Origin: Dactylellina haptotyla
Taxonomy: Eukaryota > Ascomycota > Orbiliomycetes > Orbiliales > Orbiliaceae
Reading direction: 5' to 3'
DNA length: 64,000 nt
Assembly (NCBI GenBank): GCA_031310005.1
Contig: CM062380.1
Location: forward strand, 2,728,001-2,792,000
Numbering within the stretch: the first letter of the stretch is position 1; each line of letters opens with the position of its first letter. Below the pieces are notes generated by a model. The model saw only the letters and a program-made list of their open reading frames with translations. It was not told the DNA's origin and made no database searches. The position numbers and the translations under genes are program-made. Positions 20,814-51,279 of this stretch are shown here, piece by piece.

Positions 20814-22922
20814 TCAAACATTCGGGGCCTGGATCGAGTCTGCCCAGGTAACCCTGCGTTGCTTTTGTTCTTTTCTGTGAGGTTCTGACTGTACGACCCT
20901 CGTGACTCTCTCCTGGTCCGGGTGGAATTCAGCGGCGAAATATTCGACATCGGGATACTTTTCTTGGACCAACAACTCGCGAATTTTCGACTCTTCTGCC
21001 AAAGGAACGCAAGCTTTCGATCAATTTGGATGTGACCCAAAATTAGTGTGCCGTCAATATGAAAGAACCTGTGGGGAACTTACAAAGTAGGCCCGTAGCA
21101 CCAGTCCGTTCGCTCAAGACCTTCTTAAGATTTGGTTCACCACCATAGACCTTTGTAAGCCGATCGTGTTTGCCCACAACCTCTAACTTTTGAGCAGGAA
21201 CACTATCGGTAGGCGTTGCTTCAGGAGGTAAGAATACCCATATTTTAAGAATCTGCCATTACAAAGAGTTAATTTTATTCGGCTGCGTCTAAAAAGACAT
21301 TGCCATATACGAACATAGTTCCTATCGACCCCGAGCACCTCGTTCATCCACGATTCGATCCATTCTAAATCGACTGTGCGTGTTGTGTTGTCAGTATTCG
21401 TTGAACAACCCAACCAATGGTCGAAAACAAAGCTACCTACTCTTCCGCACCAAGCTCCTCCATAGCAAGACAATTTTCTGTGTTCTGACTGTCATGCGGT
21501 TGTACCCCTTCATAAGATTTTTCGCATAGGGTAAAACACCAGCAATGCCGACACCTGTAGCTACCAATATAACGGTGCCAAAATCATCGAGCCTGTGCTC
21601 CCGTCCGTAAGGGCCATCTAAGTATACGCGATACCTGACTTCGGAATGGCAACGGAGGAGATCCATTGTAAAGCCGTTGCGAGGCCGAACAAGAAGAAAC
21701 AGGTCAGTTTCTGGTTGATTGTTGGTGGGAAGGTCGTCAACCGGAACGTGCCCTGCAACCTCGAAGTCACACACAACATTTTTCTGCTGCTTGGGGTTTG
21801 GGGCCGGCTCTCCTTCCGGGCTCGGCGTTGGATGACATATACACGGACAAGCGCGAGGTTCCTGCTTTCTCCCACTGGCAGCGACATTCTTGAGTTCAAG
21901 CTTGGCAAGGCTGTTCCTAGGACCCAGTCTGTCCGCGCATGGGCACTTTTTATGCCACCAGGCGATGGCAAAGGGATGTGATTGCAGGAATGAGGTCGTA
22001 GACACGTGCGGAATAGAAATATATATGAACTGGCCGGGCTTGATCGCCCATACCCTGCGAATCTTGATGTGAAGCTTGATAACGCCACCACCCACCTGCT
22101 CCACGGATATGGTCCCCCTCCCATACCCACGCATTGTGCGATATAATCGTGTTCCGGCCGCTGAGAGGAGAGCGGTAGCCCATATAGAAAGCAGAAGGAT
22201 GAGGTAAGGTAAGTAACCATCTTGCATATGCGACCACATACCTTTGGTCATCACAATCAAGAGCCCGAAATGGATGATCCGATGAGTTTCATAAAGCCGC
22301 GACTTTATTAGAGATGTCAAAAGGATCGAAACAAGCGCCATGGCAGCCTATGCGACTCGTTGTTTGTTAGTACGGATAACTGTGGCGCCCAGTATAGCTA
22401 ATTCGATCGTACCATGAACCCAGGATCCGTGTAGATTTGAGCAGTTTTATCCGATTCTATCGCACCTAAAACGGCATGTGTCAACCCTTCTAAAATGGCT
22501 ATTCTCCCAATCCAATCGTGCAGAGAGGCATGCGACGCATAGGAAAGACCGAAGAGAGAGCCGATCGCATCCAACCGACGACCTATTGCTAGAATGAGGA
22601 TGTTCATAATGGATATTCTGGCGCAGCGAATACTGAACGCGGAGATATTGATAGGCCCAACGGCTATCACCGCGATATTCGACGAAACGTAGGTTACGAG
22701 AAGGAACAATTTCCAGCGTGAGGTTCTCCCAAGGCGCCGCTCAGAGACGAGCGGGTAAATAAAGAAGAGAGATAGAAAGTTTTTCGTTCCACTAAGGGAA
22801 ATCAAAGTAAATAGACGATAGACGAATAAAACGATAAATCCGAATGCCAGGCAGAGTCCATACCAGAAAGGTATTGAGGTTATGGACAGAAAGAAAGAGG
22901 CTATACGGGTATCCAGATTCAT
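20814..22922 (-). CDS. Ferric-reductase/NADPH-oxidase-type transmembrane oxidoreductase
   Basis: This is a membrane flavocytochrome of about 614 residues, expected to pass electrons from NAD(P)H through FAD and two hemes to Fe(III) or another acceptor. Exons are 22922-22413, 22347-21441, 21373-21315, 21252-21084 and 21013-20814, with phases matching at every joint. The N-terminal third has several membrane spans. Heme-ligand candidates are H135/H149 and H196/H210, each pair 14 apart. The FAD motif HPFAIA is at 294-299. The NAD(P)H part holds GPYG (415-418) and VATGVGIAGVLPY (432-444). The C-terminal Cys motif appears as SCVPLAEES. A Cys/Pro-rich insert at about 305-365 interrupts the FAD domain. 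It is divergent from the MADS-like gene. Ferric reductases are typical Starship cargo; substrate specificity is not known. Confidence 0.88.
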
Positions 22923-23257
22923 TGTGTAGAGGTTCCTGTGCGTGCGCACGTAGCTGCGGTGCTCTGAGCAAGTGATAAAATTCAATAAGATTTAGGAAAC
23001 CAGAATGCGATGGAACAATGAAGACTCTGCTGCTTACAGACTGCCAGCGCGGGCTATAATATATATGGCCAACCTGCAACCCCTTCCAACATCTCTTCCT
23101 CCACCAGTATCCACCTACCCAATAACGGCCAGTTGCAGGACTGAAAATAGTTGCCTTTCCCTGCCCAACACATCTTCAGCTTCACGTTAGCACCAGGAAC
23201 AAAACCCGCAACACACATCCTACTCTAACGCTTGTGCATCAACCAAAGCCAAGCGAT
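22923..23257. promoter_or_regulatory. Shared promoter of ferric reductase and MADS-like genes
   Basis: The 335 bp lie between two divergent start codons (22922 minus and 23258 plus). An AT-rich TATAATATATAT stretch near 23055 could serve either gene. No specific iron-responsive GATA cluster was recognised. Confidence 0.4.
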
Positions 23258-23653
23258 ATGCTGCGGAACCAGAAATCAAAGGGAAGATTGAGCTACCCGC
23301 CCAAAGAACAGACAGAAAAGGAGCGGAAACGCCGCTACCAGAGGTGGTACAAACGGAAAAATGGTCTCATCAGAAAATCGGCCAAATTCCACGAGCTTTT
23401 CGGCGATGACATCGCACTCATAATCCGCCGAGGCAACGGGAAATACTACGCATACTTTTCGTCCTCAAGACCAGAATGGCCACCCTCTAGGAAGGATATC
23501 GTAAGTTTACCAGATGCCCCAAGTAGTATCGGCCTCAGGGGCAGCAGGACCTGGTTATACTGTGGCTAACAAATCTGATAGGAGAAAAGTTATCCCTTAG
23601 CCGATTTGCACTCAACGAGCACGGAACCGCAGTCGAATGCTAGTGAGGATTAA
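23258..23653 (+). CDS. Small MADS-box-like protein
   Basis: This predicted protein has about 104 residues. Exon 1 is 23258-23500 and exon 2 is 23582-23653. The intron has a perfect GTAAGT donor and a GGCTAAC branch point. Residues about 26-64 resemble a degenerate MADS (SRF-type) core (RYQRWYKRKNGLIRKSAKFH, then ELFGDDIALIIRRGNGKYY). A proline-rich tail (EWPPSRKDIEKSYPLADLH) follows. Canonical MADS proteins bind CArG-type DNA as dimers. Here only the core survives, with no K- or SAM-like partner domain. The ATG at 23258 is the first in frame. It shares a promoter region with the ferric reductase and could regulate it, which is inference. Confidence 0.6.
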
Positions 23654-24068
23654 GCGGAATTGATACTATCGCAGTCCCACAGCCGCGGCGCCGGCAGATG
23701 CCTATCGAGCTATTTGAGAAAAATATTGCTAAAGGGAAAAGACTACACCCTGGGATGGAGGTGCCTAACATAGCTCTTTTGTTCAAATAAAGGAATTTAA
23801 TACATAGTAATAATATTTCAACGCTCCGCGTGAATGTAACTACGTAATTTAGAGCACACGAATTTCTCAAGGCCTGCTTGCGGTTCAACAGTATAAAGTC
23901 ACAAAACGGAATCCTCGATGACGATATTGCACAAATTGGGATAAAATCACAACATAACTGGCATTAATTTAAAAACAAGCACATTCTGAGATATCCTAAG
24001 ATCAACAATGAAAACAATGGGTAAAGAAAAGGCTCAATCTAGGTCCAGCTGGCACTGTTGTTTTCGGA
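23654..24068. other. Intergenic, nothing recognised
   Basis: This is convergent 3' space between the MADS-like gene and the large orphan. No feature is seen. Confidence 0.5.
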
Positions 24069-26339
24069 TTAGTCGCTGTCAGATGTTGATTCATCGCTGC
24101 TTTCTTCACTGCTTTCTTCACTGCTTTCAGGTCTTGACGGAGAGCGAAAATCAAAATACTTTTTAGTATCAACAATAGTTGAAGCTTTTGCGGGCCCCTC
24201 ATTCTCTTCTCCCGAATTCTCTAGTGTATTTGTACCCACACCAGAATTTCTCGTTGGCTTCGATCGAGAGGAAGCCCGGGTCTGATGTCGTGCTTGTTCC
24301 TGCTTTGGGGCCTCAAGTCTGCGAGATACTAGAGCCGTATTTGATTTAGGGGCTTCAAGCAATCGTAACTGAGGGGACGAGGATAATCGCGGTAAAATTT
24401 TTTGAGTAAATCCGTTACTTATTTTGATCTGCTCAAGCTCGTCGATGGCCTCGTTTAAAATTCGGTCTACGATAGCAGGAGTCATAGCGTCGCCTCCAAT
24501 CTTCTCCACATTCCTTATATCCGATCGTATTTCCCAAGTTATTTCCCCATCATCCCACTCTGCTTTTACTAGGGTAACTGGTTTCCGAATTTTGCCCTCT
24601 CTATCCGCATGAGACCAGGCCAAACCTCGAAGGATTTTGATAGTGCAATTGCCACTTAAAGCATCAGCAGTGTTACAACGCCTATTCTCCTTCTTTCCAT
24701 AATCTATTAACTCTGAAACATCCACGGAGAATGGATATTGCCTCCTAGCGATCATGGCATAAATTCTTGCTTCCCCCATTTTGCACTCAACGATGAGTGA
24801 ACAGCCTGTTCCTACGGAGCGCTTGCCTTCCACATGAAATATTCGCTCCAACTGTTCCAAGGCTGCTTTGTGATCTATAAGTTGCCCTTTTTCATCAAAC
24901 TTGATAAGTCTCGAAGACGAAGCGTCTTCTTCTAGCGCTTCAGGATCCTTTGCGCCTCTTCGTTGATTAGAATGACCGACAGAGGTCGTATTAACATTCG
25001 GTGGGCCAGATGAAGCTTTAGTGTTATGGCCATGGCGCAAGTTATGGGTATGTGATTGGCTAGAGGATCGATCTGAACCTGCTCTTGATCTAGTCTTTGG
25101 TAATACTGGAGATGCTTCAGATAAATCTATCTCGATGACCTCGATGACCTCGATCGCTTCCTCAATTTTCTGGGGATTGAAACGAGCTACGACTAAAGAT
25201 TGTTGCTCTTCCTGGTTGTCGTCCTGTTCGTCGTTCATAACCTCATTCTCTGGCTTCCACTCGCTTTGCTTTTGAATGGCGTTCAGGTCAAATGTGAGTA
25301 TTTTTTTAAAAACTCTCGATTGTTGTATTATGAGCTCCTTTTTAGCAGCTTCCAGTTTTTGGGCGTCATGTGACGCCATGATTACCTCACGTTGTCGTTT
25401 TAAGACTCCGTCCTGTTCTTTCAACCAAATTTCCATCTGTTTGAACAACGAGGTTCCGCGATGTTTCTCCCGATCCTTCTTTAATTTCTTTTCAGAGTAT
25501 TTCTGGCGCTCTTCATCTAGATCTTTCTCGCTTGTCTTCTGAAAATCTAGTATGTACTTAGACCAAATTTGGAGTATTATCGACTCTTCATCGGTGTTTT
25601 TAAATATTCCGGCATCCGTAAGGTTTGCGTCTAGGTAGTTGCCAACAGAGTCGGGATCATCAGGAAGACCAACAACATGACAGTCTTGTGCGGTAACCAA
25701 AAGACCTAAGCTCTGTCCGTGTTTAACAAGAGTTCGATATAGAAATCGGAATTTTAGAAAGTGATTTGGATCTTTTGACCGTTTGATTGCGTTGGTTGTT
25801 AGATGTAGTCTCAGACTCCAAAAAAGAGGCTGTCCCGCGAGAACAAGTTCTTGACTGTTGTCTTTGAAGGCTGCGAGAGAGTTTGTCTTAGGGGCCTCTG
25901 AGTTTTCGTTTCGTTGAATTATCTCTCTGACTGCGTAACCACAAGCGATAAGCCAATCGAATATATCCACTAAGTATACGATTGGCAGTTCCTCTAAAGA
26001 TGCTGATGTGATCCAAGCCCACCAAAGTAGCTCCCACGTTAGACCAGGGGTTCCAACTGCACTGTCAAAATCTTTTTGCGCTACAATTCTAGTGGCAGCT
26101 CGTTTTTGGAAAAATAGGAAACACCAAAGAGTTCTTGTCATTTTTTTCTGGTCTGAAAACCCGGATATGTTGACTTGAGGGAAAAGTATTTCCGTACTTC
26201 CATCGCGGATTCTCTGGAGGCTATCAGGAATCTCTTCGGCTTTACGGCATCTCAAAAAAGCAGGGATCTCCCAGTTTTGAATTTCGAGAACGGATTCATC
26301 TGCCCCCTTGAGATCAACTTTAGGTCTAGTGTTGGCCAT
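24069..26339 (-). CDS. Large orphan protein, 756 residues
   Basis: This is an uninterrupted frame from the ATG at 26339 (MANTRPKVDLKG). I do not recognise the family. The N-terminal 250 residues are helical and Trp-rich (TWELLWWAWIT). A charged coiled-coil segment follows (KYSEKKLKKDREKHRG; QKLEAAKKELIIQQ). Further on is a disordered, Ser/Arg-rich linker with an IEVIEVIEID repeat. A second folded region is at about 480-640 (GCSLIVECKMGEARIYAMIA; VTLVKAEWDDGEITWE). That last segment is faintly chromo/Tudor-like, but I would not assign it. The C-terminus is an acidic SSEESSEESSDE repeat encoded by a 12-bp tandem unit. The layout suggests a nuclear protein. It lies between the ferric reductase and DUF3723 genes. 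Confidence 0.65.
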   Translation of the reverse strand: MANTRPKVDLKGADESVLEIQNWEIPAFLRCRKAEEIPDSLQRIRDGSTEILFPQVNISGFSDQKKMTRTLWCFLFFQKRAATRIVAQKDFDSAVGTPGLTWELLWWAWITSASLEELPIVYLVDIFDWLIACGYAVREIIQRNENSEAPKTNSLAAFKDNSQELVLAGQPLFWSLRLHLTTNAIKRSKDPNHFLKFRFLYRTLVKHGQSLGLLVTAQDCHVVGLPDDPDSVGNYLDANLTDAGIFKNTDEESIILQIWSKYILDFQKTSEKDLDEERQKYSEKKLKKDREKHRGTSLFKQMEIWLKEQDGVLKRQREVIMASHDAQKLEAAKKELIIQQSRVFKKILTFDLNAIQKQSEWKPENEVMNDEQDDNQEEQQSLVVARFNPQKIEEAIEVIEVIEIDLSEASPVLPKTRSRAGSDRSSSQSHTHNLRHGHNTKASSGPPNVNTTSVGHSNQRRGAKDPEALEEDASSSRLIKFDEKGQLIDHKAALEQLERIFHVEGKRSVGTGCSLIVECKMGEARIYAMIARRQYPFSVDVSELIDYGKKENRRCNTADALSGNCTIKILRGLAWSHADREGKIRKPVTLVKAEWDDGEITWEIRSDIRNVEKIGGDAMTPAIVDRILNEAIDELEQIKISNGFTQKILPRLSSSPQLRLLEAPKSNTALVSRRLEAPKQEQARHQTRASSRSKPTRNSGVGTNTLENSGEENEGPAKASTIVDTKKYFDFRSPSRPESSEESSEESSDESTSDSD

Positions 26340-26817
26340 TATGGAAACGATAAATTGAGAAATATGGTGCGACAAAGCCGAAAGCCTTCAACGCCTGGCG
26401 ACAAGGCAGGTGCTTAGAAGGGATAAATGTGAAAATATAAAAAAAAAAGAAGTGACGTTCGGTTTTAAGGGCTTGGGTATTCTGGACAACTATGAGGGGC
26501 GAGTGGCAATTCCAAAGCCTTGTATCTGTCAGTGAAAGAGAGGAAGGTAAAATAAAGAAAAGCAAGACGGTTTAAATTTGCTCAGTTTTTAAGCGTAGGA
26601 TTATCTGACAATGCTGTACAGGTGAGCCATCTCATTTCAGCTGCACACTCACAATAATCGATGGGCAGCCTGTATAAGTACTCCTTCAACTATCCTGCTC
26701 AGCGCCCTTTTGCATTCGGCATTTCCCAGAAAACCAACCCACAATTTAAATACCGAGTATTAAACATACCAAAACTACTTTTTTAGGTAGAAAGCTTTAC
26801 ACTTTCAGTCAAAAAAT
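26340..26817. promoter_or_regulatory. Divergent intergenic region
   Basis: This is the shared upstream region of the large orphan (minus) and the coiled-coil gene at 26818 (plus). No motif was recognised beyond AT-rich stretches. Confidence 0.35.
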
Positions 26818-27501
26818 ATGCCTTTTGTACATCCACAAGCTAGTCTAGATGGTCACTCTGAACAACGTCGACCCCAAAGTTCTCTTATTGTCAGTACTCC
26901 TCAAGCTGTCATCCCACCGCCTGGATATTCAACGGCAGCCACGCAAACACAGGACCATCGTTCAGAGGGAAGGGTCTCTTGGTTTGTACCTCGAGAGCCT
27001 CAGGCCGGACCCAACCTCCCAAACCCACTCGGTCACACCTCGTCCCCTCGGTATGCTCAGCTTCATCCATCCGAGTCCTCTTACATTCAGCAGGTGAAAG
27101 ATTTGATCGAGAGACAAATGCGGATCCTCATTACGCTAGAAACGGATTTTAGAAACAGTTCCTTGGAGAAACATACGATGGCGACTGAGATTGATCGGCT
27201 CCAACATGTGGTTGAGCAACGCTTGTCGCAAGTAGCGGCGGCTGAGAGAGCACTCAAAGACCTCAACGTCAACTACCAGAAAGCTTATACTATCATCAAG
27301 TCAAAGGATATTCATATCCAAAATCTCAGCCGAGAAATCAAAAGATTGCAGGACAATAAACGACTGTCAATGAATAAAGCAGATGTGAAAATGAGAGATG
27401 TGGAAATCGATGGGCATGGAAAGTCTGTTCACGTAAAGACGGAGCCACGCGAAGATGAGCTGGAGCGAGAAAGAACCCCTTTCGCCAGCCAGTCGGCATA
27501 G
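26818..27501 (+). CDS. Coiled-coil orphan protein
   Basis: This is a single-exon frame of 227 residues from the ATG at 26818. The N-terminal 85 residues are Pro/Ser/Gln-rich and likely disordered. Residues about 90-190 form a continuous coiled coil (VKDLIERQMRILITLETDF; EIDRLQHVVEQRLSQVAAAE; SREIKRLQDNKR). The acidic tail is DVEIDGHGK-like. I do not recognise the family. It shares a layout with the genes at 6005 and 28609, possibly a diverged family, but I see no aligned motif outside the heptads. Confidence 0.6.
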   Translation: MPFVHPQASLDGHSEQRRPQSSLIVSTPQAVIPPPGYSTAATQTQDHRSEGRVSWFVPREPQAGPNLPNPLGHTSSPRYAQLHPSESSYIQQVKDLIERQMRILITLETDFRNSSLEKHTMATEIDRLQHVVEQRLSQVAAAERALKDLNVNYQKAYTIIKSKDIHIQNLSREIKRLQDNKRLSMNKADVKMRDVEIDGHGKSVHVKTEPREDELERERTPFASQSA

Positions 27502-28608
27502 GGCCCTAATTTCCGATACTCTTTCAATAATCGAGATTTTTATCTCCAGCGATATATTGCTGCAGTGTTGAAGAACGATTCGTCGTTCTCAACTATCTTG
27601 TTCCGAGAATACTCCCTAAAAGCCTGTACCACGATATCATATACTATCTACCTTAGATGAACGCGAATTTGATGAATTCTCATTATTTTTGAATCTATTA
27701 TTTCCACACCTAAGTTTCCATTGAATGTAAGCACAGTGACGGCTTCCAAGCTCAGTAACTCGACCCTCGTACAAACATCAAAAGAGACGAAACAAATACG
27801 CTTGACCACATTTCCAAATACATTGGGTTATTTCTCCGAAAATGTTTCGAGTAACCGTTATAGGCGGATAGATCTCAAGTCCGCAAGCTGTTCAGTGACG
27901 CACAAAAAAAGCAGAATACACGAGAACTAATTCAATTCCATTGCATTTGTTTTCGTTTTTCGGTCGAGAGCGCATTCTCATTCGGTAGGTCTCAACACAA
28001 CAATAGAGCAACAACCTGTTGTTTGTCAGATCAGATCAAGATCAGGATAATCGGCACGTGATTAGGTATCATTCTGATGTCTCAGTTTGGCGAGCCGTTT
28101 TCACGTGATCGTACCTCGAAATTGATGTCTCAGATTGGCGAGCCATACTCACGTGACCGCGCCTTCGATTTTCATGTCTCAGGTTGGCGAGCCGTCCTAA
28201 ATTTGGAGCAAACTTACATGAGCTCACAAGAACAAAAGTTTACGAGGAAATGAAACCTGCGGCACAGGATAGCAGCTGCAAAAAAATAATGCAATGCTCA
28301 CACAGGGATGGACTCAAACGGAGTATCAACGTGGACGGCATTTTTGTCTGTTGATACACACTGGATCTCGTTTTCTCATTTTTCAGCTGCAAGACATATA
28401 ACATGGATTGTTGATGGCCGTTGAAATCCATTTAGAGATATTTCAACCAAGGAGTACATATTAATTCTTTATTTGAGCGTTCTCGCTTCGTATCAGCCCA
28501 ATTTTGTCATCAGACATACTATTGATATCCTTCACTAGACTCTAGTATTGGTATATCAGAGTTTTCGAATATTTACCCTCCATCAACGTTTTCAAACAAA
28601 CCGGCATA
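27502..28608. other. Intergenic with a three-copy TTGGCGAGCC array
   Basis: No gene is supported. The notable content is the repeat array at 28054-28193, listed separately. Confidence 0.5.
28054..28193. repeat. CACGTGA / TTGGCGAGCC tandem array
   Basis: CACGTGA occurs at 28054, 28102 and 28151. ATGTCTCAG followed by TTGGCGAGCC occurs at 28087, 28135 and 28184 (motif starts). The period is 48-49 bases. TTGGCGAGCC is the reverse complement of the GGCTCGCCAA word found at 20252 and at 44103. CACGTG is a perfect E-box, the usual site of bHLH factors. Confidence 0.7.
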
Positions 28609-29430
28609 ATGGAAGAAATGGAATACAACACTTCAGAGAACCACGCATCCTCAGGGTTATCTGAGGCCGGCTTGTCAACCTGCTGCCCTGCCGCGTTGAG
28701 AGCCCAACAGATCTGTCACCTCCATGACAAAAGTAACAAATTTCTGCGGCAACAATTTGCCCTGTCCCAGGCAAACTTTGCCAAGCTGCTTGACCATTTG
28801 AAGGACTGTGGGCACGTCGACCAAGAACCTTCAAAACTAGCAGAAACCATGCGAATGGAAATCGCCCAACAATCCGCCAAACTGCAAGAAGCCGCGCAAA
28901 AGCAGAAACGGCGGAACGTGGAATACCAGATGAAGATCAACCAAAAAGACGCGACTATCGACGATCAAAATGAGAAGATCGCTGCACTCGAGGAGACCAA
29001 TACGAGAAATAATTTTGAGCTTATCCGCATGGCAAGCGACATCGATGCGCTGCAAACAAAAAACCAAGACCTCGAGGAACTTGTGCTCCAACGCTTCGGT
29101 GTTATAGATCCACCCCCTGGCGAAAATAACTTTCAAAACTCAAAGCGCGAAGCGTCGTATGGCTCATTGTTCGCAGATTCGATGCTACCCCTATCGGCAG
29201 TCGGCGGCAATGATAGCAAAGATTTATCAGAAGACAGTATGGATGTCAAGATTGACAGCACTGGTATGAATCAGTCCCCTGATATGCACGATATTGCGAA
29301 TCTCTTTAATATTGACGTAACTTTCGTTCAGCTCATTTACAGGACATGTAATTATTATGCGAATCTACGAAGAGCCGACGATGCGCCAAAACTTCCATAC
29401 TATACACGCTCGATCGCTCCCGGCAGATAG
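28609..29430 (+). CDS. Coiled-coil orphan protein
   Basis: This is a 273-residue frame from the ATG at 28609. A long coiled coil spans about residues 75-165 (ETMRMEIAQQSAKLQEAAQK; KDATIDDQNEKIAALEETN; DIDALQTKNQDLEELVLQRF). The C-terminal part is Ser- and Asp-rich, with no recognised domain. The last 40 codons may contain an intron or 3' UTR because their composition changes, so the end is uncertain. It has the same general layout as the gene at 26818 and lies in the same orientation. Confidence 0.6.
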   Translation: MEEMEYNTSENHASSGLSEAGLSTCCPAALRAQQICHLHDKSNKFLRQQFALSQANFAKLLDHLKDCGHVDQEPSKLAETMRMEIAQQSAKLQEAAQKQKRRNVEYQMKINQKDATIDDQNEKIAALEETNTRNNFELIRMASDIDALQTKNQDLEELVLQRFGVIDPPPGENNFQNSKREASYGSLFADSMLPLSAVGGNDSKDLSEDSMDVKIDSTGMNQSPDMHDIANLFNIDVTFVQLIYRTCNYYANLRRADDAPKLPYYTRSIAPGR

Positions 29431-30021
29431 AACCCATTATTGTCAATTGCCCGCCATTGATATATCCACAAACTCGTTCTCGTTAGGCACTGATGTTGCG
29501 CGTTCCTGTACGAGACTACAATTGGCTTCTGTTGGTTTTGTCTCAAATATGTGTTGTTTGTTGCTTTTATTTCTGCCGTACAAGACTGTGTCGCTCACTT
29601 ATAGTCTCGAACCAAACCAAACAACACAGAAGCTTGCTTTGGCCCCGAGACTGGCTCACTTACTCTTTTTGTTTCAGCAATGTTTCTTTTAGAGAACCAA
29701 GGAGTGTATTTAAAAATTCATATGAGACTATCTACATCGCAAATAAACTCGGGCCACTAATAAAACGATCTAATTTCCATGGAACTCTAGAGTAGCTTGT
29801 TTGAAAACCTCCGATATCTTTTAAAATTAAAACATTCTGTTAACGCAAAAGTACTTGAAAGACACGGACCGCTTCCACCACGATGAGAGCTTCGTTCGAA
29901 ACGAATGAAAAATAGGTACATCGGCTTCTATGCATGCAGGAATTTTAGCTACGCTATATACGCTAAACTGCGAGATAGTAGATTTTTTTGGCTTACGTAT
30001 CAGCGTGTAGGTTGAGTGCCA
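29431..30021. other. Intergenic with one dispersed repeat copy
   Basis: No gene is supported. It contains an exact copy of the 25-bp dispersed repeat at 29605-29629. Partial reverse-complement words of the same repeat lie just upstream (29531-29565). Confidence 0.5.
29605..29629 (+). repeat. Dispersed repeat, copy B
   Basis: It is identical over 25 bases to the copy at 2058-2082, 27 kb away. Its left flank CAAGACTGTGTCGCT shares words with the copy at 38909. Confidence 0.6.
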
Positions 30022-30264
30022 TCAATAACGTGTCTTGAAGTAGATGATAATGTTGCGCAAATGCATAAAAACGAAGGTGATAATAAAAGCTTGTAGGATG
30101 ACGGTAACAAGCACATGAATTCTCGTTGGATAAAAGTAAGCAGCCTGTTCCTCGCTGGCGGCTCGGATGAGAGATAGACGATTATAGGTATTGTTGAGTG
30201 GAATATAGGTGGTAATATGAAACAAAACCACGATTAGGAAGGCAAAGAGGATTTCTGGCTGCAT
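30022..30264 (-). CDS. Small two-span membrane protein
   Basis: This is an 80-residue frame from the ATG at 30264. It has two hydrophobic helices, residues about 4-21 (EILFAFLIVVLFHITTYI) and about 49-67 (HVLVTVILQAFIITFVFMHL). The linker between them is polar and carries an N-P-like YPTR turn. The tail ends in RNIIIYFKTRY. I do not recognise it. Its short length makes the call tentative, but the two clean spans and full start-stop frame argue against chance. It lies 3' of the DUF3723 gene in the same orientation. Confidence 0.45.
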   Translation of the reverse strand: MQPEILFAFLIVVLFHITTYIPLNNTYNRLSLIRAASEEQAAYFYPTRIHVLVTVILQAFIITFVFMHLRNIIIYFKTRY

Positions 30265-30446
30265 TCTGGTGAAGGTGAAATGGTAGTGCGATATTAGCGT
30301 AGTTTCTTGGAAGTTGGGATCGAGTTGAGAGAATATTTGTCAAGGCTAGAAGCCACGAATTAGCGAGTGACAGTGGAAGGGCATTCGGCTCGTACTTATA
30401 ACTTGTTGCTAGCCTCAGTTGAATGCTCTGGTTTGAAGACTTGCTT

Positions 30447-40940: not shown

Positions 40941-41783
40941 CGCTAAAACCCTATCTTCCCTAAAGTGTAGCGGTTTATAGAATTTTTGTTAATTGCTTAT
41001 GATAATTGGTGTTCTTCAACAGGCTCTATTGCACGATTGTTGAGTTAGGGATGGCTTATCTTTATATTTTTTTTAGATTGGACAAAGGAATTGTATGAGT
41101 GATAGCCTACGCCTTTCATCTCTTCATTTAACCTTACCGGGACTGTAGTTGGATCCTCAAGGCTGTAAGCACAGGGAGAAAGGTAAGTCGTTTTCTGGTT
41201 GGGCGGACCAATCTTTTCTTGAGGGCCTGATTCACATGATGTTGGTATCCATTCTTGACATTCCGGGAGAACGTCTGTGGTCTTCTAAATCTACTATTGG
41301 TTACAGGCATGACGTGCGTACCCATTTATGCAAAGTACCTCTTTGTACCATGTCATATCCACATGGCAACAAAGATGCTTTCGTGCACCACACCACATGG
41401 CCAACCCTTGTTTCGTTTATGACGTCCATCCAGGTAAGGTGTTGGGACGAGAATATATCGGTTACCAGATTGGAAAATCAACTTTTCTCTATGGAGATGG
41501 GGTTCTCGAGCAAGCTAGAGACCAGGAGACTTCATTATCTTATAAAAGACGAAACAAATCAGCCTCCCTTATTCCTGATTCCGACGTACAAGCTCACGAC
41601 GGGAACCAGCAGGATTAATTTCCAACTCAATGAGATACATAGATCGGCCCGAGAGACAACACAAAAATCCAAGATCTATCTATCTGTCCCTGTTACGTTA
41701 CCATACTGCATCTCACACTAGGCATAGATAATCTAGTGAAGCCGGTCGCAGTAATAAAAACGGAAACTACATTTAACGACACG
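40941..41783. other. Possible C2H2-like fragment in otherwise unassigned stretch
   Basis: Around 41307-41433 (plus) a short segment reads RHDVRTHLCKVPLC followed by HGNKDAFVHH, vaguely like a C2H2 finger. It lies between a TTACAG acceptor and a GTAAGG donor. I found no start exon or continuation that makes a full gene, so none is called. Confidence 0.3.
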
Positions 41784-42098
41784 ATGGAGCCGAGCCGGGA
41801 ACCCATGGGATCGAACTCCGGCGTTGTGGAGTCGAACTCAGATATTATTGTTCTAAACCCGAACAAACGCGTTGCTCGACCGCGTTGGACGGATGAGGAG
41901 AGACAAATTCTCTGGACCTTGAAGCAAGAAAAAAATATTTCCGATTGGTCTTTGGTCTTACAAGCTTTCAACCAACATCCGTTAACAACCCCACGAACGT
42001 TGGATGCTCTAAGGCACGAGTACTACAGATTGGCAGTAGGTAGCTCTTGCTTAACACCCGGATTAACACCAACTAAGCTGATGATGATGGGACTTTAG
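41784..42098 (+). CDS. Small SANT/Myb-like protein
   Basis: This is a 104-residue frame from the ATG at 41784. A single Myb/SANT-like repeat occupies residues about 33-85 (RPRWTDEERQILWTLKQEKN, SDWSLVLQAFNQH, RTLDALRHEYYRL), with Trp residues at the first two core positions and Tyr near the third. This is a better match than the other SANT-like genes here. The N-terminus is Asn/Ser-rich. It is probably a nuclear DNA- or chromatin-binding protein; the target is unknown. Confidence 0.65.
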   Translation: MEPSREPMGSNSGVVESNSDIIVLNPNKRVARPRWTDEERQILWTLKQEKNISDWSLVLQAFNQHPLTTPRTLDALRHEYYRLAVGSSCLTPGLTPTKLMMMGL

Positions 42099-42606
42099 AC
42101 ACCTGAGCCGAGCTAAGCCCATACTATATAGCCGTTAATTTGTACCAATTTCCGTTTGCTCCGATGCTAGGTCGGCGTTGGCCTCGAAAATTGCCAGCGT
42201 CTTATAATGCCATGGTATCACTATTTTTTGAGATTCTGGGTAGTCTACGGTACCTTGAAAGGATATCCTATAAGCAGCCGAATTAGTACGATTCTAAATA
42301 GAAATAGCGATGGAGCGTTTAACATATATCTTATGAGATGTACCTATTCCTTGTTAATGTCGCCTAGCGCAGAACACATAATTATGGTTTGAGGGTTGGT
42401 TGGATTTGTTGGATCTCGGTAGGAACTGTGGACACCCGGGAAGATGTATATATAAATAGTAGAACCCACTACTTCAAACTGTAATAGAAAGGTTGACATA
42501 TTTCAAAATTCGATACTTCAGGCGTCCGTCACAGCCAAATTCCGATAAACAACGTACTAGGCCACTGGGGTAGCTAGGTTAAGTTCTAGGAACACATTTA
42601 GAACGA
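42099..42606. other. Intergenic, nothing recognised
   Basis: It lies between two plus-strand genes. No feature is seen. Confidence 0.5.
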
Positions 42607-43586
42607 ATGTCCTATAAAGATTTTTTGACCTTGTTCTTTCTAGATTCTTCTATAGGACGGTATGGCTTGACAAAGCCGGCAGTAATGGTATTTCTAAAAA
42701 CCGCCAAGCTCTATCTTAGCCCCGACTGTATTTCGACAGAACTCTGGGAGGCACGTCCGTACCGGCAACGGAGCATTAGAACCAGTGAAGTCTTCTTGGC
42801 TGGTGAGGCCCCAAGTTTTACTCCCCATCTATGGAGTATCATAAAAACTGGCATTGAACAAAAGCACCGAGCTTTGGGTTATTCCACGATGCTTCTCCCA
42901 CAAAAACTTCGCAGTTTAGGGCTGCCCAAAGATGTCACCAACGAGATAACCCAATCCGGGTTTCAGTACTATGCAGAAGCGTTAGATTTGTATCAATTGG
43001 TAATAGAATACATACGGACCAATCTCGAGTAAGAATTTGCCTGTCTGATTGGCGTAGACGGTATTGGATCTAACCTACACCTAAACCTAGAGAGAATTTC
43101 ATCCCCAGGCTGAGAATCACGCCGAAACAGTTTCGCATCGAAAACATCATTCCGAGCGATAAGGTCTTATTCCACGTTGCGAGCCGCAAGAAGCTATGTT
43201 ATTTTATGAGCACTGGGAAACTCAAAGCTCTTCGACTCAATCCTCCTTCGCCTTTTTCGGATTCTCAAATCATGGTCTACTTCTATCTTCGACTCGATGC
43301 CGCTATTATACATCATCGTTGGCTATCCACTCTCCACCCCGATATCCACTTTAAAATCTTGGTCGTAACATTTAATAGAAGCATCGCCGACGCTATGAAC
43401 GAGAAGATGGGGTTCGTCAAGGGGGAGGAAGTTAGAGAACTCGTATACCAAGACCGGTATCCCCCGCTGGAGGGGTCAGATATTTTGGTGGGGAGTCTCA
43501 GGTGCCATACAAATGAGAACAGTCTCCTTGGGTTTAGAAATCACTCCTGGACAATTGTTGAAGGCCAGCAATTTTTTTGGTTATAG
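42607..43586 (+). CDS. Hypothetical protein, two exons
   Basis: This predicted protein has 299 residues. Exon 1 is 42607-43028 and exon 2 is 43109-43586. The intron has a GTAAGA donor and a CCCCAG acceptor, and phase matches exactly. I do not recognise the family. It looks globular rather than disordered, with mixed helix and strand (MLLPQKLRSLGLPKDV; YYAEALDLYQLVIEYIRTN; MVYFYLRLDAAIIHHRW; FKILVVTFNRSIADAMNEKM). The last stretch is faintly GNAT-like (NEKMGF), but the acetyl-CoA loop is not visible. I leave it unassigned. Confidence 0.55.
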
Positions 43587-44533
43587 CCTGATCGATAAAT
43601 TTGTTTCAAATGTACTTTGGAGGATGGTTAATCGGTACCTGAAGGTACATGTACGTCGAGTGCTTGCTTGTGAAGGGGTTTGAATGAATACCAAGCCTGA
43701 TTAGGCTAGCCGATATACAGTGGGACACGCACAGAACCTGGTAGCGCCGTGAGCGTCTGCCCCACAGGCTCCACATTGGCGTTAATTGCGTCGTACACGA
43801 GTATTCCAAATGGAATGTTTGCTCCTGTGAGACTCAACCGTATTGTCGGATCTGAAGACTAGGATAAGATACAAAAATATGAGGTGAAGGTGGAGCCTAC
43901 GAACGGGAAAAGAGAGTCTTTTGGGGGAGCTCGAGAGATACCGGCCATCTCTCAATCCTTGGCGCTTCACTATCAGCCCATTTAGACAACGGAGATCGTG
44001 GAAACCGCAAGAATGCAGTCTACCCCTACCCTGTTGGATGTTGGTTTCTCAAGGCACTGAAACACTGTCGAATGACTCGCCTGAGAAGAGTCTGGACCCA
44101 ATGGCTCGCCAATTCCTCCCGGGTAAACATTCTGTTTGAGAGAAATAGCAACAATGGCTCGCCAATTCCTCCCGAGTAAACATTCTGTTTGAGAGAAATA
44201 GCAACAATGGCTCGCCAATTCCTCCCGGTTAAATATTCTGTTTGAAAGAAAATAGTAGGAATGGCTCGCCAACTCCTCCCGGGTAAATACTCCTTTCAAA
44301 AAATCGTTGTTGTTATGTGGCGGTGCGATCGGATGCTAATGCGGCTGGGTTTTGATTTCGGTTTGGGACTGCGCCACATGGCGCCCGAAACATTCTCATT
44401 CGCCAACAACCACCGAAATGTTCTCATTTCATCGCCAAATCAATCTTCCGATACCAGCTGAACGAACTCGTCAACCTGCTTTCAATAACCATATTCTAGA
44501 TTTCGCTCCAAATCTATACTTACTGGAACCGCA
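43587..44533. other. Intergenic with four-copy GGCTCGCCAA array
   Basis: No gene is supported. The array at 44101-44295 is described separately. Confidence 0.5.
44101..44295. repeat. Four-copy tandem repeat, 53-54 bp period
   Basis: Units start ATGGCTCGCCAATTCCTCCC at 44101, 44154, 44207 and 44261. The first three are nearly identical and the fourth is diverged and truncated. Each carries the GGCTCGCCAA word shared with 20252 and, inverted, with 28087. An open frame across it on the minus strand is a by-product of the repeat. Confidence 0.8.
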
Positions 44534-45694
44534 ATGACTTCGCTTGACGCGACTTTCAAGAAATTGTCCCTCGAGACCGGTTTCCTACCCCCTCAGCCCG
44601 GTGACTCCCGGAACTCAATGGTTGATAAGTATCTTGAGATGCTCGCAGCTGCTTATGAACAGATCGATATGAAGATGAACTCCCAGTAAATAAATCTTGC
44701 TCGCTTTTATCGGCTTGTAAAACTGACTTTCAACCGTGATCTATTAGGTTTGATAGGGTGGACCAAAGCATGGAGCATACAGTCGCTCAGCTTCGCCAAA
44801 GTATTGAACATGCAGTCGTTCAACTTCGCCAAAGTATTGACCATGCAGCCACTCAAATAAGTCAAGGGGTGAAAGAGAGTGAACAGTCGTGGGCACGCCG
44901 ATTCAGTAACGTCCACGAAGAAATGATAAAACTAGACCAAGCATTTTCATCTCTCAATGAAGCTATGAATGAAGTGAGGCGCGAGGCTGAACGCACGTAC
45001 GAAAAGGTCTCACACATGCACCGCGACATCCAAATCACAAATCAGTCTCGGGTGCGGAGTGCCCATAATTCCAAAGTTTATCGTGCGTACGAACCAATCT
45101 TGCAAATCGAATCTTTGGAGAATAAGACCAACTTGCCAATTCCGCCGGTTCTTTTAAATAAGTTTACAGTAAAAAAGTTCTGGAAGCTGAAAACTAGGAA
45201 GCAAGGTATCCAATAACCATTCGTTTATTATATTTTGACTGGTTTTAGATACAACTATTAACGCTTCACTAGTTGCGGAACTTCTTTCTCTGTGTCGGTA
45301 TTATTCCATAGTTATCGTCAACCATCGCAAAGATCGGCTTGAAGACTTCGAAGAATCCGAATCTGAATCCGAATCCGATGATCTAAAACTAGATCAAGAA
45401 TTATATATCATAGAATCGAATATCGACACTTTTCATCGACTCGTTGGCCTCAAACTTGGGTTGGATTATGAGAATATCAGTAGCCACATACAGAGACTCG
45501 AAGAAGAGTCGGAGAATTCTTCGTTGAAACGACGGTACGACTCTCTAGCGTCACCCGAGCCACCCTCACAACGTCGGTCGTCCGGAGATATTATCGAAGT
45601 TGTAGCTACCCCTTTTGTTCCACCCACGCCCCAACAAGATTACCGACACGGCGGCATTTTCTCTGAGTCCCCTACTCAGTCCGATGAGCGGTAG
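44534..45694 (+). CDS. Coiled-coil protein with 11-residue repeats, three exons
   Basis: This predicted protein has 351 residues. Exons are 44534-44685, 44748-45205 and 45249-45694, all phases consistent. Exon 2 opens with three hendecads (SMEHTVAQLRQ, SIEHAVVQLRQ, SIDHAATQISQ), encoded by a 33-bp tandem. The coiled coil then continues to about residue 145. Exon 3 adds LVAELLSLCRYYSIVIVNHR, an acidic ESESESESDD run, a second helix and a Pro/Ser-rich tail. Eleven-residue repeats favour right-handed or membrane-peripheral helices. I do not recognise the family. The introns make it a real gene rather than a chance frame. Confidence 0.65.
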
Positions 45695-46252
45695 CACATC
45701 TACTTCCTAGAGTTCCGCCTTCCACAATACCATTCTAAGATATTGCGCAAGGTTTTATACTTTATAATTTATTTTTGCCCTGTACTGCTACTTCTTTTAT
45801 TTTGATGCCATTCCAGCTTAAAGGTCGTTACAAATTGTACATAATATTTTCAACTATAATTCTAACAAAATCACCGTACGCTGACTGCTGTATCTTCTAA
45901 ACAAAACACATTACGGGAGTGTGAGAAACTCTGCTACACGCTCGGCTTCTAACCTTTTATTATGTTTGTAATGTTCCCGAAAATAAATTTGAAGCAATAT
46001 CCACATTATGAAGAACCTTTGAGCTATTTCAGCAATAACAATATTGTGTGGGTGGTCCAACACCCCCTTTCTCTTTTGGCGATAGGGAGAGTACCTGCCT
46101 TGAACAAGCATTATACTTTTTGCTATTGAGCCTTGCAAAATATTTCTTAACAACTGATGAATATAAATATCACCTGTCCCAGTGCTAAACCCATCAGTCA
46201 TTCTATCGTTCTCACATCTAGTATCTCCTCGTTAAGCTACCTGTCTATTCAA
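45695..46252. other. Intergenic, nothing recognised
   Basis: AT-rich; open frames on the minus strand (45911-46201) look random. Confidence 0.5.
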
Positions 46253-46686
46253 ATGAAAACCCTAAGTTTCAAAACAATCGTAATACTTTCTCTCGTTATT
46301 TCGAGTACTAGTGCTGGTAGTGCAGGACTTCCAATTTGCGTGGCTAATCGATGCCCAAAGGGAGCGCGAAACCCGGTCGCTATGACGGGGACAGACACCA
46401 CTCTCTCCTACGTTCCAAAAGGAGACAGTGCTACTGCCTTGAGTACGACCCAGACCGAAACAACAAGTTCAAAATCTCCACCGACTACCGATAGTGCAAA
46501 GGACGCAGGTACGCTGAATACGTTTCCTTTGATTCACTAAAGCCGTTAATAATTATTATAAACACAGATGGGAGATCATACGAAGCGGAGCCGGAGCATT
46601 CTAGTGATAGACACGAACCGGCAAAGGTTAGCAAGTCTCTAACCAAGGTTTCGCCAGTGAAAACAGCTGGAGATAACTCCCTATAG
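46253..46686 (+). CDS. Small secreted protein
   Basis: This predicted protein has 124 residues. Exon 1 is 46253-46508 and exon 2 is 46568-46686 (GTACGC donor, CACAG acceptor, phase kept). The start MKTLSFKTIVILSLVISSTS is a standard signal peptide, with cleavage likely near residues 20-25. The mature part has two cysteines close to its N-terminus (PICVANRCPKG) and is then Thr/Ser-rich with an acidic/basic tail. It has no recognised domain. Size and secretion signal fit effector-like proteins, but the low Cys count and the Ser/Thr content also fit a cell-wall-associated peptide. Confidence 0.6.
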
Positions 46687-46899
46687 CCAGGCTGGTTTCG
46701 GACTTAGTAGGTTACCAGTTTACAAGACTGATCTGAAGCATCAGACACAGTCGATATCACCTGAAGATAAGGTTACTAACAAAGTATTTGCAGACGAACA
46801 ATTATAAAGTACTGCTTCTGAAACAGTGTTCGATGCTAAAATATTAAGATGGTAGAAAGAAATCGTGTATCCAATTTGCATAGCCTGTTATTTACAATA

Positions 46900-47700
46900 T
46901 TAAAACTGGAGACGCGTTTTAGCGTTTTTTGGAAGCTTAAACCCGTGCTTACGAGCAAGATGAGCCTTATACCAACCTTCCCGAGTAAACTCCATAGCGC
47001 AATATGGATATGGACATTCAATTGACGTCTCGTTATCATATCGTGATAAATGCTGTGCTTCGAAATGCCGTCCCAAGTTAAATGCACTGTCATAGGTGTC
47101 ATAGGTGTGTCCTTGAGTCGCAGGGTCGTTGTATTGGTGGTAGAAACACACAGGGCACTGGAGTGGCTCGATCTACCTGTGCATATGTTTATCTTCGGGA
47201 TCGATAGTCGTCACCCTTTTCAGACATATATCTACAGCTAGGATTTCGTAAGTATCTGGGAAATATGGTTTTGCTAGCAGTGTGTATACTGGTGGAGCCC
47301 AGGCATCTAACTTGGTCGCCAGGTATCGCTTTCGACTAGGGGCATTTCAACATTACGTATTTCAAGTCCTATAGCTGGTCCGAGGACGGATGGAATGACG
47401 CCTTCTCGTAATTCTCTACTGTCCGATTCTGAAACGCCTGTAAGCTTTCGGTTCTCCAGAACAATTTGCCTAATCACCCGATGAGTTCGACACGCCGTGC
47501 GCGTAGCTCATCCATAGTCAGCGACGTTTCGAGTGGGTCGTCGAACAGAAGTTAACTAGCCCTTTCCCTTTCTTCAGTCGTGTATAATGGCTCTTGGGGC
47601 TGAGTTGAAGGTTGAAATACATCCAGCTCCTGCGTCCCCTCATCTGGGATAGCTTGTGATTCCTGCTGCGCCGTTAGAAATCCCGCCAGGCGATGCCCTT
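46900..47700 (-). pseudogene. Relic of a second DUF3435 recombinase gene
   Basis: The minus strand from about 47166 to 46900 encodes a two-finger C2H2-like tail (CPVC..HFEAQHL and CPYPYCAMEFTREGWYKAH). It aligns closely with the tail of the intact DUF3435 protein next door (CLFC..HVSTQHL and CPHPACC..FKCHAAKVH). Upstream, to about 47700, I recognise only broken patches of the preceding region (DDPLETSLTMDELRARRVELI-like) interrupted by stops. The catalytic part is not found. It is most likely the decayed 3' end of a paralogous captain-type gene. Only the zinc-finger frame remains open, so a small surviving gene cannot be fully excluded. Confidence 0.6.
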
Positions 47701-48337
47701 CCACGCTACGATAGGGCATCAACATGTCTAAGCATCGATGGTTCGATAATACATGTGCATTTTCTGATAATTCACGTTTCGTTTGCCGTGTTAAACACTG
47801 CTATCATGTTAGACGGATTGCTGTTGTTGGAAAGAAGTGGTACATGTTATGGTGTGGTGGCGATGAGTAAGAATTACTAGATTTAAAAGTCAAAGTAGTC
47901 AAAATGGAAGTTCAAAACTCCTCCTCTAGGGACTTTATTTAGATAATTTAGCATTACATATTTTCTCATGACGATACATCACGTGAAATATCCGCACTAT
48001 AAAAATATACCTACACGCATCAAACATTTGAACTGTACCATTTTATAAGATATCAATATTAGACTATCCTTGAAAGTAATAAAATTATCAATTCTTCATC
48101 GGTCGACACTAACTACGATCTAATATATAAATCCCATATCCTAGTTTACTATTACTCGCTCTACAAATTATTATAGTTATAATCCACGTACAGCCTTCCC
48201 GAATGAAACGCAACCACCAGTGATTCTTCGCTAACTCTCCGAATCTCTTCGAGTGGTTTCTCTTGTAGCCTGTACTCAAAATTTTCCATTCACTTGAGTT
48301 TCTTACGAGTGCCTGGGCTGAGAGCAGTGTTCCGTTC
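47701..48337. other. Intergenic, nothing recognised
   Basis: It is AT-rich in the right half, which probably includes the 3' UTR of the recombinase gene. Confidence 0.45.
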
Positions 48338-50709
48338 TTAGTAATAGACATTGTGGACCTTTGCGGCGTGGCATTTGAAATGGTCTTGTGATTCCAGGAG
48401 GGTACCACAACATGCTGGGTGAGGGCAAACAATCTTGGCTGAGGTACCGAGATGCTTCAAATGTTGCGTAGATACATGGCGGCGCAAAGAATCAGAACGT
48501 GACCATCCTCTAAAACGCGCCCTTTCTGCCAACTTGGTATCTCCTAGGCAGAATAAACACTGGAACGAGGGACACATGGCCGGAATCAAAGGTTGCTGTG
48601 ATATTTCGCAGGCTTGGTTGTCTGGTATTATATCATCGGGCTTTCTTAAGAACTGGAAGTCAATTGAAGGAACCTTAAGTGGTTCTACGAAATTGAGAAT
48701 TCCTTCTGAAGCTTGACAGAGGCTAATAAGCTTCCCAAGGACCCTTATACGTATATCAGGAGTAGCCGGTTGTTGATCCGACCATTTGATACGACGGTCG
48801 GCGACATCAATACTTCCGAAAAAGAACCTAGCGATATCTGACCGCTCTTGAAATGCCATGTTTAACGCGTGAGATTGCGAACTGGAATCTGTATCAGAAT
48901 GAGGTTCCATAGTGCGAAGTTGTTTGGCTATCTCAACCTCGTTGATGTTGTCAAAGAAGTATTGTCGCTTCGCAGTCATTGCATCTCTTTCGCAAGCCAT
49001 CTTTTCGGACTTGATGTCCTTTTGAAGGGCCTCATACTCTTGGTACAGATCCGTGTCATTGGCCTTAGCAATCTTTAGACGTTTATGGTTGCGGAGGAGG
49101 CGATTCCTCAAGTCGTCAGCTTCATTTTGGAGGCTTTGGAGCTCTTTGTTTTGCCCAATAGCCGTTTTCTTTTCGACTTTGGTCAATGACTTCGGAGCTT
49201 GTGGGTGGCGACGCAAACCCATTTTTCCAATGGCGTCCAGCAGATCACTCCGTGAAGGAGTGCCGAGAAACGCGGATTGAATATCAAGATTGACTCGTCT
49301 AGATCGATAATATTTATCATATGTTTCATAAGCCGTGTGACCTAACGCTTGGGTTCGTTGGGAGACCGTTGCAATCGCTGAGGAAGCACCATTAATTACT
49401 GTTAACTGTATCGGGTAATTTGTAAACTTACGGTCGATAACACTAGCGGCGGCACGGCGAAAATTATAAGGTTTGAGAGGTTCCTCGAAGCCAGCGTTTT
49501 CGCCAAGATTTTTCAGTAGTGCCTGTAGAATTCCGTACGAGAAAGCTTCTGTTTCGGAAATGCTGCGGCCTTGAGGTCCTGCTTCACGGAAAATTGGTGT
49601 TTCAAGAATGCTTTCTCTCCATTGAAGTTGGATGCTGTCAACATATGATGGGACAACAAGGCCGTACAAGTCAGCGGGCTTCTTGATGTCTTCTGACTTG
49701 AAGGCATTATCCGTAAAAGCGAGTGCGAGAAACAATATTATCGGATCAAATGCGAGACAGTCGTCTCGCTCATGGAGCATAAATATAACTCTTCAGGTTG
49801 TTAGTATTGTCCATTACACTCTACTTTATCTCAGTCGAGTTTAGCTTACGGTTCTTGTTTTCGACCTCTACCCTTCATGATCCAGCTAGTAAGCTCCATG
49901 ACGATGACAATCTGCCTGGCACCATCGCATGGTAGAATTCGAAGAGAGACATCTTTGTATTTGAGGCTTTCGTTCGTACCACGCCGGCAATTAGATTCTA
50001 TCAGAGCGCCGGGGCGGGAGGCTGTGAAAGCCATAAGCATGAGGATTAATGGTAACTGTATGCGATAACGCTCATGTCGCAGGATTGATGTATCCAAAGC
50101 CCAGTGATAGTGCAGAAGCACAAACAGGTCTGTAGCTTTAGCGAGAGGTTTTGATCGTCCGAGCAAAGTAAGTTCCTGCTCAATTCGGAGGTTGTTATGC
50201 AGATACTACCAGGAATAATTAATGAAGGCTCCAGTGCTAGCCAGAGGATAGGAGGGTCTTTACCGATCTTATTTCATCGCCAATTCTTTTATCCAAATAG
50301 CATTGGGTTCTTTCAGAATACACTAGACGAAGATACTTCCACTGAACCTCTAATGTCGAGAAACTCTTTACATTTGACGTTACAATATACCATTCAAGGT
50401 AACCTTTAAAATACCGGCAATCAGTATTACAAGAGCCCAAAGCAGTATCTGGGCATACAGGTATCGTTTGACAGTATCTAATCATCCATAGCATTATACT
50501 TAGCAAAGGGAAGCTACGAAACTTGCGATATAGAAGGAATCTTACCGATTCCAAGATTTTTTGACTTTAGCAATGAAATCTTTGGTGGCAGGAGCATGGA
50601 GGCTAGGCGGCGCTTTATGTCTGGAAAGAAGAGCCAATCTTTCAGAAGAATTATAAGGTTCTGTTTTCGTGGTTTTCCGCGATCTCCTAGCTCTGCGTTC
50701 TGGAGCCAT
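48338..50709 (-). CDS. DUF3435 tyrosine recombinase (Starship captain type)
   Basis: This is a predicted site-specific recombinase of 728 residues that would cut and rejoin DNA to move its element. Exons are 50709-50546, 50477-50264, 50205-49850 and 49790-48338. All phases agree and no internal stop is left. The N-terminal core-binding part reads KKSWNRYC and FKGYLEWYIVTS. The catalytic domain has TASRPGAL with Arg190, YNFR (353-356, the Y-x-x-R box), GH at 395-396 and a Tyr cluster YETYDKYYRSR, one of which should be the nucleophile. A coiled coil and two C2H2-like fingers follow at the C-terminus. It starts about 570 bp from the 3' end of SPB4 and is transcribed away from it. Such proteins are often mislabelled 'FluG domain'. 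Confidence 0.9.
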
Positions 50710-50805
50710 TGCCTACAATTCAAACGATTTGTAAATAAGCCCAACTGCACAGAGATAGGTTTCGGTTATGATGAATGTTGTGGTGCTTGGTGATGAAATA
50801 GGTGA

Positions 50806-50891
50806 ATGCTGTGTCCTGGAATCGAGGGTCAACCGTAGGACTGCAGGACCACTATGCGTTTATATACATGTTGCTCTGTTGGACACAGCAT
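50806..50891. repeat. 11-bp inverted repeat in the captain promoter
   Basis: ATGCTGTGTCC at 50806-50816 and its perfect complement GGACACAGCAT at 50881-50891 flank 64 bases. The TATA box of the captain gene lies between them. Confidence 0.75.
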
Positions 50892-51086
50892 CTTCGCCTC
50901 CTCTCTCACAACTATTTGAGAGATGGACTTTAAAAGTAGGAGCGTAAGTGTGGGGACCATGGGCGCGTAGCAGATGGGCTGTGTTGGCAGGAAAGGTACA
51001 ATTAATGGATGTGGAGTTACTACCCAAAAAGGTATTTAAAACTCGCTTTTTTGGATAAATTTTCACCAGCACATGAACTAACTTAA

Positions 51087-51180
51087 GTACTTATATGAAT
51101 ATATGAATATATATATATATAAGTACGTATTAGGTGTATTGTACAGGGTATCGGTACTTTGTGTATCGTACAAGATATCG
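51087..51180. repeat. TA-rich palindrome and direct repeats near the element edge
   Basis: GTACTTATAT (51087-51096) pairs with ATATAAGTAC (51117-51126) around a TA run. Next comes GTGTATTGTACAGGGTATCG (51134) and GTGTATCGTACAAGATATCG (51161), matching at 17 of 20 positions with a 27-bp period. Confidence 0.65.
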
Positions 51181-51279
51181 CAAATAAAATGTCCCAAAAA
51201 GCATGTCCCCCAAATCGCCAATCGCCCGATCATAATAATATAATTACAAAGATTGATATACTTCTATACTTCTATTCTT

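Follow-up and report, generated by a model that had tools for sequence, protein, structure and literature searches.

An 88.5-kb locus of Dactylellina haptotyla, very probably a Starship-superfamily element, and a captain-less element with related ends

Elements of the Starship superfamily of Pezizomycotina carry a DUF3435 tyrosine recombinase (the captain) as the first gene at one edge, pointing inward, and combine short direct repeats (DRs) and terminal inverted repeats (TIRs) with tens of kilobases of cargo that includes DUF3723, patatin, and ferric reductase genes. Here, we describe a locus of the same architecture in Dactylellina haptotyla, which captures nematodes by adhesive knobs (accessible part of PMC10672892). 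The window analyzed is a stretch of 64,000 nucleotides of contig CM062380.1 (GenBank assembly GCA_031310005.1), called C2 below, where it spans C2:2728001-2792000; an additional 200 kb was examined to its left, and the searched genome comprised 39,806,839 bp on 11 contigs. The host strain was taken as YMF1.03409. We conclude with high confidence that the locus holds one 88,536-bp Starship-superfamily element, located on C2 between the RNA helicase gene SPB4 and a KilA-N/ankyrin gene. One strain of the species apparently lacks the element at this site.

One of the closest described systems is Sanctuary of Bipolaris sorokiniana. According to the accessible part of its description (PMC12506042), the Sanctuary captain begins ∼350 bp from the 5' edge (371 bp here), its R, A, K, Y, R, and Y residues correspond to those of the captain described below, and its DR is also short (6 bp, compared with 9 bp here). 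In contrast, Sanctuary measures 170 to 196 kb rather than 88.5 kb, resides in another host class, and has a different DR sequence; a TIR was seen in the present element. Crypton transposons likewise use a tyrosine recombinase for mobility, but the accessible part of a published survey describes Cryptons and captains as very distantly related and separates Starships from Cryptons by TIRs and sizeable cargo (PMC12134995). A Crypton would lack both, while the element on C2 has TIRs and is 88.5 kb long with cargo.

Two features set the locus apart from Starships in general: its termini are common to a 3.4-kb captain-less element in the same genome, and no NLR gene was found in Pfam scans. The host class is not new, as Starships in Orbiliomycetes are already known; in the survey by Gluck-Thaler and Vogan, 28% of Orbiliomycetes genomes returned a Starship (accessible part of PMC12134995). 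Literature searches, which excluded preprints and reached few subscription papers, retrieved no paper joining Starship with Arthrobotrys or nematode-trapping and none using the terms mini-Starship or captain-less, and for Starship captains together with non-autonomous elements they retrieved discussion of only ToxTA and mimp elements.

Captain gene and element borders

The captain is a predicted DUF3435 tyrosine recombinase of 710 amino acids (aa), encoded on the minus strand at window 48338..50709 in five stop-free exons separated by introns at 50545-50478, 50263-50206, 49849-49791, and 49431-49378. The splice sites were chosen manually; the automatic gene finder lost the first exons. The PF11917 (DUF3435) profile matches open reading frame (ORF) 48338-49792 above the Pfam cut-off (E = 4.1e-59), and a second DUF3435 match just upstream belongs to the same gene. 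In an exon-level profile search of the genome, these were the only two matches, making the captain the sole DUF3435 locus found in 39.8 Mb. All six proposed active-site positions (R190, A193, K237, Y353, R356, and Y388) align with those of the Sanctuary captain, which are R260, A263, K308, Y424, R427, and Y458 in the accessible part of PMC12506042. The spacing of 35 between Y353 and Y388 is that of Y381 and Y416 in HhpA. Near the C terminus, Cys and His residues resemble zinc fingers as judged by eye.

Among 7,998 candidates scored, seven proteins were homologous to the captain at E < 0.001, the closest coming from Arthrobotrys musiformis (TWF481_002777, 69%) and Drechslerella dactyloides (49%); none of the seven is from D. 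haptotyla CBS 200.50. The R and K residues are conserved in all seven homologues and the A in six (S in P0010). The YxxR motif and the last Y are also conserved in 6/7, the exception being P0011, a 432-aa protein that aligns poorly in this region. Sequence searches of the PDB with the captain and with a 772-aa ORF gave no match up to an E value of 1.

The captain end of the element is its right side. There, the DR ACTTAAGTA (window 51081..51089; captain-side, 5') has its partner at C2:2690554-2690562. Just inside the repeats lie the right TIR TTCATGTGCTGGTGA on the minus strand (window 51063..51077) and the left TIR TTCACGAGCCGGTGA on the plus strand (C2:2690564-2690578), which are identical at 12/15 positions. 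With the repeats included, the element measures 88,536 bp and runs from C2:2690554, which lies 37,447 bases to the left of the window's first base, to window 51089 (C2:2779089). The part inside the window (1..51089, minus strand) is assigned from these repeat borders, from homologous ends on another contig, C3, and from a probable empty site in a sister strain. The captain ATG lies 371 bp inward of the right DR, with the gene pointing leftward into the block.

These borders were retrieved by a scan that jointly scored a DR and an inverted repeat just inside it, using 15-base TIRs and dropping words made of fewer than three letters. The ACTTAAGTA pair had the top sum among 842 pairs with a DR of at least 7 bases. 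In a random control of 112 region pairs, a DR of at least 9 with a TIR of at least 12 occurred in 1, a DR of at least 8 in 3, and a DR of at least 7 in 16; on its own, the DR and TIR pair is suggestive only. The exact TIR pattern, which was derived from the two element ends, occurs in the genome only at those ends; allowing up to 2 mismatches raises the count to 394, compared with 275 for the reversed control. Sequence composition shifts near both borders, with a decrease in GC content at about C2:2691 kb on the left and a Markov change point at window 51274 on the right. A separate search for exact border repeats with words of at least 12 bases retrieved AT runs and matches taken as chance. 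Just beyond the right border, the motif GTATYGTACA occurs at window 51136 and 51163, 27 bases apart; no other copy was found on the same strand, nor its reverse complement, in the 264 kb searched.

Stronger support for the borders comes from a captain-less element of 3,410 bp at C3:3465788-3469197, flanked by a squalene epoxidase ORF on one side and by subtilase-like ORFs on the other. Both of its ends are homologous to the ends of the 88.5-kb element and lie in the right orientation, 3.4 kb apart. By local alignment against a 264-kb database, the shared ends comprise 80 bp at 82.5% identity (E = 4e-16) and 70 bp at 81% (E = 9e-12), with nothing else in common between the two elements at an E value of 0.01. 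The right-end homology was also recovered by a whole-genome DNA search (E = 8.5e-16). That of the 3' end was seen by local alignment and by a 32-nucleotide pattern built from both 3' ends, which at up to 3 mismatches retrieved exactly these two places in the genome (reversed control, 0).

Taken together, these data bear out most of a first-pass annotation of the window that had been made from the sequence alone. It had proposed a Starship with a DUF3435 recombinase, a DUF3723 protein, a patatin, and a ferric reductase, all of which were recovered at their places by profile matches (patatin and Ferric_reduct just under the cut-off), and the Starship reading is supported by borders, captain, and accessory genes. 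It had also placed the captain at the junction with host genes, pointing into the block, as was found, and had suggested that the block is one mobile unit, for which the DR and TIR borders and the homology of both ends to those of the C3 element argue. Its interval, window 20814-51250, was too short on the left and covers only about one-third of an element whose left end lies 37 kb outside the window; its further suggestion that the block extends beyond the ferric reductase gene holds, by ∼59 kb, to C2:2690554.

The recombinase most likely binds the TIRs and would recombine at TACTTAAGT, a short site that is partly palindromic. The element would then leave or enter as a single unit with its cargo, with a 9-bp DR at each end, and may still be able to move.

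Sister-strain site and alternative explanations

Both flanks consist of recognizable host genes. To the right and outside the element, SPB4 lies at window 51280..53250 on the minus strand (Pfam and protein match). In agreement with the first-pass annotation, which had described conserved genes only to the right of 51.3 kb, 5/7 ORFs scanned right of 51.28 kb match families (SPB4, CorA, PH_4, and two pieces of SPO71), and no housekeeping gene was recognized among the ORFs scanned in window 1 to 50.7 kb or, more broadly, from the KilA-N/ankyrin gene to SPB4. On the left, profile matches identify a Gln-tRNA synthetase (C2:2671.6-2674.3 kb), a Macro-domain gene (about C2:2679.2-2680.3 kb), a mitochondrial-carrier ORF (C2:2681.2-2681.8 kb), and, as the last host gene, the KilA-N/ankyrin gene (about C2:2687.1-2689.5 kb), presumably a regulator of the Mbp1 type. 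A DUF7587-like ORF (below cut-off) lies between the latter two, and a few unmatched ORFs are interspersed.

For both flanks, the closest proteins come from strain CBS 200.50. SPB4 shares 97% identity with H072_2518, and the Macro protein shares 95% with H072_2514; both are listed with a contig of 143,198 bases. Only three tags separate H072_2514 from H072_2518, compared with 99 kb from Macro to SPB4 in YMF1.03409; provided that the tags follow gene order, this corresponds to three intervening genes in CBS 200.50. Here, likewise, three Pfam-matching genes lie between the Macro gene and the left border, and then the element follows. CBS 200.50 therefore most likely carries the unoccupied site. 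The comparison with sister strains that had been named as a possible refutation of the first-pass reading instead favors that reading: CBS 200.50 has both flanking genes with three tags between them, and none of the seven captain homologues comes from this strain. The empty site itself is inferred from tags and contig sizes rather than from aligned DNA. Among the best 120 matches to SPB4, 13 were from Orbiliales; for 10 of these, CBS 200.50 included, a Macro match (again among the best 120) lies on a contig of equal size, which for the other nine means a shared contig and does not imply adjacency. The remaining three are not comparable, as the matches from O. oligospora come from other assemblies and no Macro match is listed for A. 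musiformis or D. dactyloides.

In protein sequence, the two strains named D. haptotyla are 3% apart for SPB4 and 5% apart for Macro, which is above our expectation within a species. The Orbiliales Macro proteins also include P0146, a UniRef protein labeled Ascaris lumbricoides (46% over 54%); contamination of the record is one explanation.

Several observations weigh against the element as delimited here. With a cruder first version of the DR and TIR score, AT-repeat pairs outranked the true pair (row 15, score of 21.9), and the best first-scan scores of five other host regions were higher (22.4 to 29.8). Neither the left end nor the C3 element returned the 3'-end match when used as a query for whole-genome DNA searches. 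The left Markov change point falls at C2:2694156, which is 3.6 kb inward of the left repeat; this position was considered as the left border and rejected, because the 3' end of the C3 element places the border at C2:2690554. Most cargo ORFs have no family match, and no NLR domain was seen in exon-level Pfam scans of the element ORFs. Finally, the empty site is derived from tag numbers and equal contig sizes.

Three other explanations of the locus were weighed. The block could be an accessory, lineage-specific region with a solo DUF3435 gene that never moved as a unit and was deleted from CBS 200.50. Consistent with this view, one DUF3435 locus was found in the genome, no second copy of the block turned up when 44 of its 88.5 kb (window 1-16000 and 33000-51089 and the stretch L021) were used in DNA searches, and presence in one of two strains fits either direction of change. 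However, neither a plain deletion nor an accessory region would predict DRs and TIRs at both edges or another element whose two ends are both homologous, and we consider this explanation very improbable. Slightly less probable still is a nested or composite block, in which a smaller captain element occupies the right side and unrelated inserts lie to its left. The 3.6-kb offset of the left change point, the heterogeneous cargo, and an internal duplication of ∼1.25 kb at 64% would fit such a history, but the outermost ends belong to one pair, because both have their homologues at the ends of a single small element on C3, and the CBS 200.50 tags leave little space between the flanks. A misjoin of the block into C2 during assembly would suit the fact that a single assembly was examined but hardly deserves credence, given the DR and TIR at both joins and the use of long reads, short reads, and Hi-C for the published YMF1.03409 assembly (accessible part of PMC10580851).

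Cargo of the Starship-superfamily element

The single 88.5-kb Starship-superfamily element favored above combines a DUF3435 captain, an inward edge position, end repeats, large cargo, and common accessory genes. Of four kinds of Starship-associated accessory genes, three are present (DUF3723, patatin, and ferric reductase). Gene models from the automatic gene finder are approximate; the ORF census covered ORFs of at least 95 aa, leaving out any that overlapped a longer ORF over more than half of its length. The DUF3723 gene (approximately window 30447..33244, minus strand) contains ORF 31217-32398, which matches PF12520 with an E value of 1.5e-64. In the genome search, its match spans positions 42-508 of 508 at one place only, and stops inside it were taken as introns read through. 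On the plus strand, window 33477..36583 encodes an uninterrupted, approximate spliced model of 926 aa with a RING finger directly ahead of a patatin-like phospholipase domain; one exon matches patatin (PF01734) with an E value of 6e-05, just short of the Pfam cut-off. The model contains GTSSGG and DGG motifs, which we take to be catalytic. The ferric reductase-like gene (window 21183..22991, minus strand, approximate model) matches FAD_binding_8 (E = 1.9e-11) and, just short of the cut-off, Ferric_reduct (E = 1.8e-05).

The remaining recognizable cargo comprises ORFs for a Myb/SANT-like protein (window 41643..42098, plus strand; E = 2.4e-4, below the Pfam cut-off) and, from Pfam scans, a MADS-box (SRF-TF) protein (23126..23566, plus), an F-box protein (17992..18993, minus), and a chromodomain protein (14961..15434, plus). 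The cargo of this 88.5-kb element thus includes transcription factor, F-box, and chromodomain genes together with unmatched ORFs. Two internal repeats were also observed: a 53-base unit present four times in tandem at window 44099-44311, and the ∼1.25-kb duplication with 64% identity between C2:2723972-2725236 and L021:6599-7851.

A short homeodomain gene (window 12516..13261, minus strand, with its start at 13261) was delimited by eye. Window 12522-12887 is identical at 345/366 aligned positions (94%), intron included, to C8:2240017-2240378, part of a homeobox gene. Judged by eye, the frame in the element ends just after the homeodomain, while that of the C8 gene continues for several hundred residues. 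The element therefore probably acquired this piece by copying of host DNA, with the reverse direction being possible. We can only guess that the short homeodomain protein would interfere with the host factor. A host homeobox fragment that retains its intron suggests that the element gains cargo as DNA from other parts of the host genome.

The captain-less element on C3 and its implications

The C3 element is bordered by the repeats TACTCAAGT and TTCTTAAGT, which are alike at 7/9 positions, and has a GC content of 0.419, compared with 0.512 in its left flank. It contains two ORFs, of 228 and 337 aa, and the longer one weakly matches the PIN domain (E = 0.012, below cut-off); a PDB sequence search with this PIN-like protein gave no match up to an E value of 1. 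A tblastn search of the C3 stretch with eight captains found no captain remnant better than an E value of 0.32.

Besides the Starship and the C3 element, a pattern built from the 5' end retrieved C1:656117 and C2:3904120, giving four places in the genome (control, 0). The two additional 5'-end-like sequences (C1:656111 onward and C2:3904120-3904148, minus strand) extend over 43 to about 107 aligned positions, and no 3' end or captain was seen near either in the 5.5 kb examined at each. The C1 fragment carries the motif TACTYAAG twice, side by side.

The C3 element may be either a non-autonomous element mobilized by a captain in trans or a remnant of a related Starship with its interior lost. 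In the former case, Starship ends could define non-autonomous families, with the C2 captain acting in trans on the C3 element as DNA transposases do on their small non-autonomous relatives. We put this analogy forward tentatively, leaning slightly against it.

With one captain locus found in the genome and one strain apparently without the element, the two D. haptotyla strains form a clean pair for following Starship movement. The captain-less sibling on C3 is the part of the finding with the most novelty. As a natural minimal substrate, it marks the 70 to 80 bp kept at each end, and with it the action of a captain in trans becomes testable.
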